A stretch of 64,000 nucleotides of DNA from Methanosarcinaceae archaeon (lineage in GTDB: Archaea; Halobacteriota; Methanosarcinia; Methanosarcinales; Methanosarcinaceae), in the NCBI GenBank assembly GCA_020055655.1, contig JAIPUR010000003.1, positions 64,612 to 128,611 on the forward strand, read 5' to 3'. Below, piece after piece: positions 2,045 through 53,860 of this stretch. Positions within the stretch are counted from its first letter, which is position 1; each line of letters opens with the position of its first letter. The notes beneath the pieces are model-generated. The model had not been told where the DNA came from and searched no databases. It worked only from the letters and a program-made list of their open reading frames with translations. A program made the position numbers and the translations under genes.

Positions 2045-3364
<1,320 letters not shown>

Positions 3365-3383: not shown

Positions 3384-4412
3384 ATGGCCCACCCTAAGAT
3401 TTTAGAGGTCATTGAACACGACGTATGTACTGCTTGTGGGGCATGTGTATCAACATGCCCTGCTGGCGCCATAACTATGGACAAGCATGCAGAGGTTCGT
3501 GACCCGGATAATTTAGAATACTACGTGAAAGGTGCAGCACCTGATGTATGTGAAGGTTGTTTCACATGTGGGAGACTCTGTCCTGTAATTGATGGATATG
3601 TCGATGATGAATTCGCAGATGTAAAGGAATTCTTCGCAGCAAAGAGTACGATCAAAGGTCAGGATGGTGGTGTAACTTCATTACTTGCAAAAGCATTGCT
3701 CGAATCAGGTGAAGTTGACTGTATTGTTGGTATTGCCAGAGATGAGAAATGGGATACCGAATTAATTCTTATGACCAAACCTGAGGACGTAGACCGAACC
3801 ACAGGTACCAAATATACTTATGATTCTGTTCTTTCAGCATTAAGGGATCCTTTCGAGAATTATGAAAAGATCGCTGTTATTGGTGTTCCATGCCAGGCAC
3901 ATGGTGCACGTTTGATCTCAGAAAACGTCAATGATAAAATTGTTTTAATTATGGGCCTGCTTTGTATGGAAAGTTTCCATCACGATGTAATGACCGAAAA
4001 AGTTGTCCCTGAAATCATGGGGCTTAAAGCTGAAGATGTCGTTAAGATGAACTTCAATAAGGGTCAGTTCTGGAATATCACAAAAGATGGTGAAGAGCAT
4101 ACTGTGAAGATCCCTGTGGTCGCACCACATGCAAGAAATCCATGCCATCACTGCTGTGACTATACATCAGTATCTGCAGATATCTCACTTGGTTCAGTAG
4201 GTGCTCCGGAAGGATGGAACTCTGTACTTATACGCACAGAAGCTGGTAAGAAATACTTCGACATGTTCAAAGACAAAGTTGAGATCATGGAAGACCCTAA
4301 ACCAGGAATGTTCCTTATCAAGAAGCTTGCTGCAATGAAGCATGACAATAACGAAGGACACTATCGTGAAGTCTGTGAAAAATTCACATTTGATGAATGT
4401 GGGATTCGTTGA
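3384..4412 (+). CDS. fpoF: F420H2 dehydrogenase subunit FpoF (FrhB family)
   Basis: 342 residues from ATG 3384, chosen because GGAGG lies at 3373-3377; the open frame extends further upstream into mer but that part is not coding. FpoF is the F420H2-oxidising input module of the membrane Fpo complex and carries FAD and two [4Fe-4S] clusters. Two ferredoxin motifs are visible near the N-terminus, CTACGACVSTCP (C15, C18, C21, C25) and CEGCFTCGRLCP, followed by an FrhB/FdhB-type domain with VPCQAHGAR and a CHHCCDYTS segment. In Methanosarcina fpoF likewise sits apart from the fpoA-O operon and next to mer. Confidence 0.95.
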   Translation: MAHPKILEVIEHDVCTACGACVSTCPAGAITMDKHAEVRDPDNLEYYVKGAAPDVCEGCFTCGRLCPVIDGYVDDEFADVKEFFAAKSTIKGQDGGVTSLLAKALLESGEVDCIVGIARDEKWDTELILMTKPEDVDRTTGTKYTYDSVLSALRDPFENYEKIAVIGVPCQAHGARLISENVNDKIVLIMGLLCMESFHHDVMTEKVVPEIMGLKAEDVVKMNFNKGQFWNITKDGEEHTVKIPVVAPHARNPCHHCCDYTSVSADISLGSVGAPEGWNSVLIRTEAGKKYFDMFKDKVEIMEDPKPGMFLIKKLAAMKHDNNEGHYREVCEKFTFDECGIR

Positions 4413-5065: not shown

Positions 5066-5803
5066 CTATTTTTGAAGCTCTAGTTTTAGACTCTCAATAG
5101 GGTAACTCATGTACTGTCTGCTACCGATGTCTTTGTCTTCTTCAAGTATATTTACGGTAAACCCTGCACTTTCTGCATTTTTTATATATTCTTCCTTGAG
5201 CAGTGCAGCACCTATACAGGCACAGATAAGCACTTCATTATTTTTCTCTTCCGGGCTGAGTTCTTTTAACAGGACCATATCAGATATGTATGCTTTCCCG
5301 CCTTTTTTTAAAACCCTGTATGCTTCTTTGAACACCTTTGTTTTTTCCGGCACCAGATTAATAACGCAATTACTAATGACAATATCAATAGACTGCTCAT
5401 CGACTGGTAGGTCTTCTATGTCTCCATGTCAGAATTCCACATTGCTTATTTCGTATTTCTCAGCGTTTTTTCTTGCCTTATCTATCATATCCGCTGTCAT
5501 ATCTACGCCTATGGCCTTACTCTGTTCACCTACTTCCTGTGCAGCTATGAATGAGTCAAATCCGGCACCAGATCCCAGATCAAGTACAATGCTTCCCTCT
5601 TCGATGTTTCCAAATGCAATTGGATTACCGCATCCAAGTCCGGGATTTGTATCAGAAAACCCATCAATATCTTTTTCTTTGTATCCGATATACCTTGATA
5701 TGTCCTCTTTTGAAAGCTCAGTGCAGCAGCATCTATCGATAACTCCAATTGCTACTTTCCCATAGCTGTCGTTCACGACTGTTCTCTTTCTATTGTTGTC
5801 CAT
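5066..5803 (-). pseudogene. arsM: Arsenite methyltransferase-like gene (ArsM), interrupted by an in-frame TGA
   Basis: A single frame of 246 codons covers a full ArsM-type methyltransferase, apart from TGA at codon 125 (5429-5431). The N-terminal part has the RCCC cysteines, NPGLGCGNP and the SAM motif VLDLGSGAGFDSF. After the stop the same frame continues HGDIEDLPVDEQSIDIVISNCVINLVP, as short family motifs, to the normal end. The known reaction is SAM-dependent methylation of As(III). ArsM proteins usually have Arg after VEF, so CGA to TGA is a simple origin (inference). It may be a recent pseudogene, a read-through gene or a sequence error. AACTAGTT and a TATA-like GTTTATAAA lie upstream. 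Confidence 0.8.
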
Positions 5804-50784: not shown

Positions 50785-51155
50785 TATTGTTCCTCCTCTA
50801 ATATCCCTGATAATTCTTCTATCATCTCATTTGAGACCCTGACAATTTCGAGAATCTCAGCTTTGCTTATATTATCCAGATGGATGCCAACAATAAAAAC
50901 CGTTGTTGAATGACTCACTGCAGAAATCTTTTTTGCTCCATATAGTGCTATATCATCCTCTTTGTGTCCAGGTAAAGTGATAACAGATGCATAAGTTCTC
51001 TCTGATACTTTGTCAAATGAACCTGTGGCAACAGCACCTACGTGTTCATCTCCGCCTGTAAGTGTAACAACAATGTCCTTGTCAATTTCTTTCCAGTCAA
51101 GTACTAATCTGGTTCCGAAAAGCTCTCTGTATATCTGTTTCAAACTATCACTCAA
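50784..51155 (-). CDS. LpdD-like (prenylated-flavin chaperone domain) protein
   Basis: 123 residues. The C-terminal half (ISAVSHSTTVFIVGIHLDNISKAEI) resembles the LpdD-like domain that assists prFMN delivery to decarboxylases. The position directly ahead of ubiX supports this. Methanogen proteins of this size often carry DUF-type names; the assignment is moderate. Confidence 0.65.
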   Translation of the reverse strand: MSDSLKQIYRELFGTRLVLDWKEIDKDIVVTLTGGDEHVGAVATGSFDKVSERTYASVITLPGHKEDDIALYGAKKISAVSHSTTVFIVGIHLDNISKAEILEIVRVSNEMIEELSGILEEEQ

Positions 51156-52347
51156 GATCTGTTAAAAGGAACTGTTTTGTAACTTTTTTCACATCAAAGA
51201 ATTCTCTTGCGGCTTTTCCTACCTTTTCACGATGCTCTCTGGGTGTGTATACTCCCATTTTCCAATTATCTCTATGTGCATGTTCGAGTGTTGCCACAAC
51301 GTGGGATACTTCATCAAGCCGTTGCATTTTTCCATTCATTTTGACAAGAGCTTTCATTTCTGAAATATCAGGTTGTCCGGGAACATCTATAAGTATTTCT
51401 TTTGGATCGATCCCAACTATTTCCGCAATTTCAACTTCAATACGCTGGATATTCTTCCTGTGTTTCAGGACCCCTTCTCCAACTTCATCAAGCCCTACGT
51501 AGAGCGCACGTTTATACAATTTTCTATTCAAAAGACGATTTGCCAGCTCTCCTGCATATTCATCATCATTTCGAATTATTCCAAAGATCTCTCCATCATC
51601 CATTTTTCGCATATCGAATGGATTCAGTTCATTTCTTTGTATCATATCACCCACAGCTCTTGTGAACATTGTTTCTGCTATTCTTGATACATGATGGAAA
51701 TAAACAGAAGGGTGCATTAGGAATCTTGATACAAGAAGTGATTCAGCTGCCTTCACTCCACCTGCTGTTAGCACAAGACTATTTTCATAGAATTGCATCT
51801 CATTGATGAGTCTTTCATGGTCTACAAGGCCGAATGCCACCCCAGTATAATGTGAATCCCTGACCAGATAATCCATTCTGTCCACATCGATCTCACTATT
51901 GAGTATCTTTCCAAACTCGGTCTCTCCCTTGATGTGTGCTTCCACTTTTTCAGGACTGATGCCATTGTCATGGAGTATTTCTGTAATCTCAGTTTTGTCA
52001 ATGATAGACTTAATGTCTTCATGTCGCTGACGGGTATAATATTTCATGAGGCCTTCTGTTGCATGTGAATATGGGCCATGTCCAATATCATGAACGAGTG
52101 CAGCTACCCTGAGCTCATCTTTTTCTTCCTGTGATACTGTCTCTGTTCTCTCTATCAGCATGCTTGCCAGATGCATCACGCCAAGAGAATGTTCAAAACG
52201 AGTATGATTAGCTCCCGGATATACGAGATTGGAAAGCCCAAGCTGCTTGATCCTACGAAGGCGCTGCATAAGCGGGGAGTCTATTAGTGATAACGTAAGT
52301 TTGTCAAGTTTAATGTAACCATGAATCGGGTCACGGATGACTTTCAT
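51148..52347 (-). CDS. HD-domain phosphohydrolase (SAMHD1/dGTPase-like)
   Basis: 399 residues from ATG 52347, where the family start MKVIRDPIHGYIKLD occurs; the open frame extends 19 residues further. The metal-binding residues are in RFEHSLGVMH and LVHDIGHGPYSH, with the DYLVRDSHYTG motif following. Such archaeal HD proteins hydrolyse dNTPs or related nucleotides; the substrate is not proven. It overlaps the LpdD-like gene by eight bases. Confidence 0.88.
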   Translation of the reverse strand: MKVIRDPIHGYIKLDKLTLSLIDSPLMQRLRRIKQLGLSNLVYPGANHTRFEHSLGVMHLASMLIERTETVSQEEKDELRVAALVHDIGHGPYSHATEGLMKYYTRQRHEDIKSIIDKTEITEILHDNGISPEKVEAHIKGETEFGKILNSEIDVDRMDYLVRDSHYTGVAFGLVDHERLINEMQFYENSLVLTAGGVKAAESLLVSRFLMHPSVYFHHVSRIAETMFTRAVGDMIQRNELNPFDMRKMDDGEIFGIIRNDDEYAGELANRLLNRKLYKRALYVGLDEVGEGVLKHRKNIQRIEVEIAEIVGIDPKEILIDVPGQPDISEMKALVKMNGKMQRLDEVSHVVATLEHAHRDNWKMGVYTPREHREKVGKAAREFFDVKKVTKQFLLTDLE

Positions 52348-52407
52348 ATCGTTTAAATAGATTTCATCATATAATGGTATTCCTATAATCGTTAAAGGAA
52401 ACATATC

Positions 52408-53331
52408 ATGATAATATTCTCAGGCGGAACCGGAACTCCAAAATTATTGAATGGTCTTCGAAAAGTAGTTTCAGAAAAGGATCTCACTGTTGTTGTGAAT
52501 ACAGCTGAGGATATTTGGGTATCGGGGAACCTGGTAACACCAGATATAGATACTGTTTTGTATCTTCTTTCAGATAGGATAGACACCAATAAATGGTGGG
52601 GTGTGGCTGATGATAGTTTCAGAACCCATGAACTAATGAAATCTCTGGAACATAATGAAAAAATGATGCTAGGGGATCTGGATCGGGCAACTAGTATCAT
52701 GCGCTCGGAACATCTCAGGGCAGGAAAAACACTTAGTGAGGCTATTATTGAATTGGCAAAGTCATTTGGCATCGCTTCTAAAGTACTCCCTATGTCTGAT
52801 GATACCGTTTCAACAATGATAGTTTCGCCAGAAGAAACAATGCATTTCCAGGATTTCTGGCTTGGAAAACACGGTGATCCGGATGTATTGGATGTTTATC
52901 AGGATGGGGTAAGTCATGCGTCAATTTCCCCCGCTGTTATCAAAGTATTGGAGCAAGATGATGAGGTGCTAATTGGTCCGAGCAATCCTATTACAAGCAT
53001 TGGTCCTATATTGGCAATTCCCGGGATGAGGGAGATATTACAGAAAAAGAAAGTCATTGCTGTGAGTCCTATAATTGGAACAGAACCCATAAGTGGTCCT
53101 GCCGGAAAATTAATGAAAGCACGCGGTATGGATGTTTCTTCTTTTAGTGTAGCATAATTCTATCAGGACTTCATTGATGTATTTGTGATCGATGAAAGGG
53201 ATGATATTGATGATTCAGCTTTTGATGAGTTGGATTGCAAGGTTATGCGTGCTGATACTCTCATGAAGAGCGTTGATATAAGCATAAGCTTGTCTAATAT
53301 CATAGTAGATGAATTTGGAGCTATGCTTTGA
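52408..53331 (+). pseudogene. cofD: 2-phospho-L-lactate transferase CofD, interrupted by an in-frame TAA
   Basis: One frame of 307 sense codons has the full CofD length, but codon 250 (53155-53157) is TAA. Before it: IIFSGGTGTPKLL, VNTAEDIW, MSDDTVSTMIV and PSNPITSIGPIL. After it the same frame runs FYQDFIDVFVIDE to MRADTLMKS, matching the C-terminus of the family. CofD joins lactyl-2-phosphate to FO in F420 synthesis and should be needed by a methanogen. CAA, GAA or AAA would each need one base change. Read-through, a recent loss (if a second copy exists), a functional truncated protein, or a sequence error are all open. Confidence 0.85.
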
Positions 53332-53452
53332 AACAAAAACCTTCTACTTTATTTTTTAGTTACATAAAATATTTAAATACGTACATTTTTATTATTTTAA
53401 GGCGTATATTGTTTAATTTGAGGTGTACTTAATACAGTTTCAGGGTGAAATT

Positions 53453-53860
53453 GTGACTGAAGAATGGAATATCGATTTAAAGATCCCCGATATAGGGGCA
53501 ATGGTCACGCTTATGACAACCGCGGTTTGCTCTGTTATTCTGGGCTCCGCGGAGATAACTTATACAATGGTATGGATATCTTCCGCATACGAGAGGCATG
53601 GAAAGGACTTTTTCCTGGACCTTTTGAATGCGCAGGCCCTGACATGGACGGCTGAATATATCCTTGTTGCAGGATCCCTTCTTTTGATGTCGTCAATGGT
53701 TTTCCTGTTAAGTATGGCATTTTCATTGTATGAATTGAACGGACTTGCAAAGAATCCTGAAAAAAAAGTACATACTAGAGCTCTTTTCGGAGTATTCTCT
53801 CTGGGAATGATCTTTTTGTTCATGGCATTGATATCTGCAATTGTTCTGAGGTATATTTAA
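53453..53860 (+). CDS. Membrane protein of unknown function
   Basis: About 135 residues from GTG 53453 (GGGTGA five bases before); GTG 53423 is also in frame. Three hydrophobic segments (about TLMTTAVCSVIL, YILVAGSLLLMSSMVFLL and FGVFSLGMIFLFMAL) are visible, with a loop containing LYELNGLAKNPEKK. No recognised domain. TTTAAATA at 53372-53379 may be its TATA box. The ChlI-like gene follows after 32 bases. Confidence 0.6.
   Translation: MTEEWNIDLKIPDIGAMVTLMTTAVCSVILGSAEITYTMVWISSAYERHGKDFFLDLLNAQALTWTAEYILVAGSLLLMSSMVFLLSMAFSLYELNGLAKNPEKKVHTRALFGVFSLGMIFLFMALISAIVLRYI

Follow-up and report, generated by a model that had tools for sequence, protein, structure and literature searches.

A single in-frame TAA interrupts cofD

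The window analyzed here is a stretch of 64,000 nucleotides (positions 64612-128611 of contig C33) from a 2.48 Mb genome in 48 contigs that is 99.9% complete. The genome is assigned to a Methanolobus-like genus, with Methanolobus as the named genus-level relatives, and C33 contains a 10-N run, as in a scaffolded draft. Table 1 lists the features of interest. Inspection of the cofD frame reveals an ATG, 249 sense codons, a TAA at codon 250, another 57 sense codons and a terminal TGA. The in-frame TAA lies exactly where the preliminary description had placed it.

Table 1 Features of the window relevant to the interrupted cofD gene (window coordinates).
Feature	Position	Strand	Evidence or remark
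HD-domain protein, divergent upstream neighbor of cofD	51148..52404	-	Same neighbor in most relatives
cofD (2-phospho-L-lactate transferase), complete frame interrupted by one stop; ATG at 52408, TGA at 53329-53331	52408..53331	+	TIGR01819 and structure-sequence alignment; sole cofD in genome
249 pre-stop codons, CofD model positions 1-254	52408..53154	+	346 bits; ~71% mean identity to genus members
In-frame TAA, codon 250	53155..53157	+	Genus relatives: Ser in 17 of 23 read, Ala in 6 of 23
57 open codons and natural TGA, conserved CofD C-terminus	53158..53331	+	Model match, identity, invariant residues
145-aa protein, downstream neighbor of cofD	53423..53860	+	No Pfam/NCBIfam match; adjoins cofD in most relatives
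Mer	2381..3361		Open
FpoF	about 3390..4409		Open
arsM-like arsenite methyltransferase	about 5069..5803	-	One in-frame TGA at 5431-5429

When read through, the cofD protein scores 386 bits against TIGR01819, the NCBIfam CofD model, where the curated cut-off is 257. Residues 1-249 alone also pass this cut-off, and the part after the stop matches model positions 256-300 with 24 bits. Because both sides of the TAA match consecutive model positions, they represent one gene in one frame. Residues 1-303 of the M. mazei CofD structure sequence (PDB 3c3d) likewise align with cofD, with no gap at the stop. Both comparisons bear out the earlier statement that the frames on either side of the TAA together give the full CofD length and a normal C-terminus. 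If the stop is obeyed, the encoded protein ends at residue 249 and the C-terminal part of the CofD fold is absent from it.

The interrupted gene is the only cofD, at its native locus

Protein and HMM searches of the whole genome each yield this cofD alone. A second copy, one of the escapes from lethality that the preliminary description had offered, is thereby excluded within the assembly. The upstream HD-domain gene stands beside cofD in 25 of 29 loci and the downstream 145-aa gene in 23 of 29, and sharing these neighbors with its relatives identifies the locus as the native one and not that of a spare copy. The rest of the pathway is intact, with cofC, cofE, cofG and two cofH-like genes all open. 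Two CofE-family genes are present (C39:2791-3480 and C24:22498-23223), as they are in every genus member searched. The F420-dependent enzymes Mer and FpoF are encoded in the window, as described before.

The stop is private to this genome and cofD shows no decay

The genus yielded 24 other cofDs, none of them with a TAA at codon 250, and no genus member shares a stop at this position, the stops reported inside some genus matches being natural gene ends. Serine is the residue most often found there within the genus (Table 1); residues in more distant relatives include Glu, Lys and Met.

Signs of a long-standing pseudogene, namely further lesions or relaxed constraint, were not found in cofD by tests of identity, branch length, private changes and C-terminal residues. 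N-terminal identity exceeds C-terminal identity by 0.199 in the window cofD, and by 0.232 on average in the genus. With the tree of 25 genomes fixed, the tip leading to this genome accounts for 7.7% of total tree length for cofD and for 5.1% in its post-stop part, compared with 9.1% for cofE, 9.6% for cofG and 3.4% for cofC. Private changes at otherwise invariant sites number three in cofD, nine in cofE and ten in cofG. All eight C-terminal positions that are invariant or near-invariant across 16 diverse CofDs are kept. Identity, tip share and kept residues thus agree with the earlier remark that the 57 downstream codons carry no further decay. Since cofE and cofG have branches at least as long as that of cofD, and since the post-stop codons are as conserved as those of relatives, the stop is either very recent or not real. 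With the comparison relatives ~30% diverged, these measures say only that any unconstrained period would have been short relative to a long branch.

Lone stops occur in other conserved genes of the assembly

A coding-potential scan for single in-frame stops, covering ~1.2 Mb of this genome, detected four in conserved genes: the cofD TAA, a TGA in the arsM-like gene, a TAA in an AMP phosphorylase gene and a TAA in a small conserved gene on contig C17. The arsM gene is open in 12 genus members, with Arg at the TGA site in the five that were read. The AMP phosphorylase TAA (C44:87377, minus strand) is matched by open genes in 26 of 26 relatives, with Ser at the site. This gene is 80-87% identical to its relatives outside a damaged patch, where the TAA sits in a 27-nt burst of ~8 changes, nearly all transversions, that turns the conserved PIMDKHS motif into NIKDMT followed by the stop. 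The burst looks like a local consensus error and would be hard to explain by evolution, a real mutation cluster being the alternative. The third TAA (C17:34526, plus strand) lies in a gene that is open in five relatives, all with Ser there, and for which a Pfam scan returned no family.

As a positive control, the scan recovered three pyrrolysine-type TAGs, at C4:609, 5711 and 15430 (minus strand), in three methylamine-methyltransferase-like genes of a pyrrolysine system whose tRNA-Pyl (CTA) lies at C4:10081-10152. On visual inspection, several high-scoring split frames proved to be adjacent genes in one frame, for example Dph2/methyltransferase and a pair of ABC transporter genes, and these were removed. 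Stops at C24:28142 and C33:104685, which lie upstream of likely true start codons, were also set aside.

An independent homology scan used the genes of two complete relatives as queries, of which 468 matched, covering ~236 kb of this genome. It revealed two true lone stops (cofD and arsM) and zero frameshifts. The two complete relatives themselves have no true lone stop in a real gene across 400 kb each (0.8 Mb total). The excess over these controls is small, at 2 versus 0 in the matched scan, and is suggestive without being statistically firm. General genome decay was rejected, given the zero frameshifts and a long branch that is common to other genes and not peculiar to cofD. Because lone stops recur elsewhere in the genome, including arsM within the window, the finding of an interrupted gene is not specific to F420.

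Origin of the cofD stop

Given the isolated stops in other conserved genes of this draft, the cofD stop probably reflects either a base error or a mutation of very recent date, and not special decoding. We consider it highly probable that the stop arose as a point event, recent or spurious, and is not being maintained. The given sequence truly contains the stop, which is nonetheless probably artefactual or, if an allele, a transient one.

As the best single explanation we favor, with moderate confidence, an erroneous base in the consensus of the draft. What is observed is one stop, with no other lesion, in the sole copy of cofD at a conserved locus, an intact remainder of the pathway, a stop shared with no relative and similar isolated stops elsewhere in this assembly that the two complete relatives lack; the wrong base is what we infer. 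The TAA would then be an isolated one-base change leaving no trace of decay, and the cofD of the living cell would be ordinary and intact, producing a CofD that would transfer phospholactate from LPPG to Fo. Several points count against a base error. A random change in cofD creates a stop in about 3.4% of cases, such that four nonsense errors in 1.2 Mb would imply ~100 wrong bases there, which is high for a good short-read assembly. The lack of frameshifts and the near-complete gene content also point to an assembly that is sound for the most part. The placement of all three TAAs on serine (~0.002, see below) would not be predicted by plain random error, and the direction of change at codon 250 is itself guessed from relatives ~30% diverged. 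The preliminary description had posed a dilemma in which loss of CofD would be expected to be lethal unless there is a second copy, readthrough or a working truncation. Its anatomy of the gene stands, but its reasoning omits the likeliest option, a wrong draft base. If the base is wrong, the assembly contains isolated wrong bases, and its other lone-stop findings deserve equal caution.

Ranked next, and possible on a more tentative footing, is that the sequenced strain or population really carries a nonsense mutation of very recent origin. The truncated CofD would be inactive or weak, and cells would get by with what activity is left or with Fo, or else the allele would be a minority or doomed one. 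Such an allele fits a single lesion with no decay, and the one interruption in each of three other genes is what would be seen in a strain that accumulates nonsense mutations. However, the affected gene is the only cofD of an F420-dependent methylotroph in which Mer, FpoF and the other cof genes are intact, and the role of F420 in methanogenesis (PMC8498797) leads us to expect strong selection against CofD loss. A literature search gave no report of a cofD interrupted by a premature stop.

It is unlikely that a genuine TAA is translated as an amino acid, by near-cognate readthrough or an ochre suppressor, often enough to supply full-length CofD. In favor of this reading, the frame stays open past the stop with every conserved residue in place, and the genome already decodes TAG as pyrrolysine, with its tRNA-Pyl and three amber methyltransferase-like genes. 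All three lone TAAs (cofD, AMP phosphorylase and the C17 gene) also stand at positions where relatives have serine (in 17 of 23 read at cofD). Serine makes up ~12% of one-step TAA sources when weighted by codon usage, and the chance of three of three is ~0.002, rising to 0.04-0.08 under a strong C-to-A bias on the coding strand; the pattern was noticed post hoc and concerns three cases. Errors or mutations biased toward C-to-A could produce such a pattern, and so could an ochre-suppressor tRNA-Ser. In favor of serine suppression, seryl-tRNA synthetases do not depend on the anticodon.

Against readthrough, the cofD stop is conserved in no relative, where conservation of the stop among homologues is a criterion for recoded genes (PMC1914089). 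Of 638 long frames in this genome, 303 end naturally in TAA, more than in either other stop codon, so that efficient suppression is unlikely. Direct tRNA scanning of about half of the genome showed four ordinary tRNA-Ser types (GCT, TGA, GGA and CGA) together with tRNA-Pyl, and no TTA-anticodon tRNA; a whole-genome search with tRNA-Ser(TGA) matched only itself, though such a family search misses some tRNAs. The RNA around the cofD stop folds slightly better than shuffled sequence (z -1.7) and has no match in Rfam, which falls short of a downstream recoding signal. The arsM stop, moreover, is a TGA at an Arg site. Programmed recoding of the cofD TAA is not supported, and pyrrolysine at codon 250 was rejected since the codon is TAA and not TAG. 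If the stop were nevertheless real and read through, this would be a methanogen dependent on UAA suppression for a central cofactor, a kind of dependence that to our knowledge is unreported.

A functional CofD of 249 residues, acting alone or with a separately started C-terminal fragment, is very improbable. The pre-stop part alone does exceed the CofD cut-off, and an in-frame GTG occurs at codon 260, ten codons past the stop. Yet no clear ribosome-binding site was found before this GTG, no relative has a CofD as short as 249 residues, and a dispensable C-terminus would not remain conserved. In an AlphaFold2 model of cofD (mean pLDDT 94), codon 250 falls within helix 245-251, and residues 252-307 form strands 258-262 and 278-282, helix 269-275 and a long final helix at 289-305. 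Truncation would cut within the first of these helices and remove both strands and the final helix. The missing 57 residues also include four that are invariant in 16 diverse CofDs (D262, T284, M286 and L295). Judging from the model, obeying the stop would be expected to yield an unstable or inactive CofD, and with these losses the earlier option of a working truncated protein becomes unlikely.

Least probable of all is that this Methanolobus-like archaeon, whose lineage already reads UAG as pyrrolysine, tolerates UAA as a leaky serine codon in cofD, AMP phosphorylase and the small C17 gene by means of an unseen ochre-suppressor tRNA.

Comparison with known systems

Genes recoded for pyrrolysine (TAG) or selenocysteine (TGA) resemble cofD in having one in-frame stop within a conserved domain and open sequence beyond it. 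In contrast to these, the cofD codon is TAA, it is not conserved in homologues, and neither a signal element nor, in the half of the genome scanned for tRNAs and the whole-genome family search, a matching tRNA was found. When read through, cofD agrees with known CofD proteins (TIGR01819; M. mazei 3c3d/3c3e) in full-length match, length, locus and all invariant residues, and differs from them by the TAA at codon 250, which is in no relative examined. Single-lesion pseudogenes and draft base errors differ from cofD in that this gene is expected to be essential and in that the three TAAs all fall on serine positions. With them cofD shares a single point change in an otherwise intact gene, its restriction to one genome and the presence of other cases in the same assembly.
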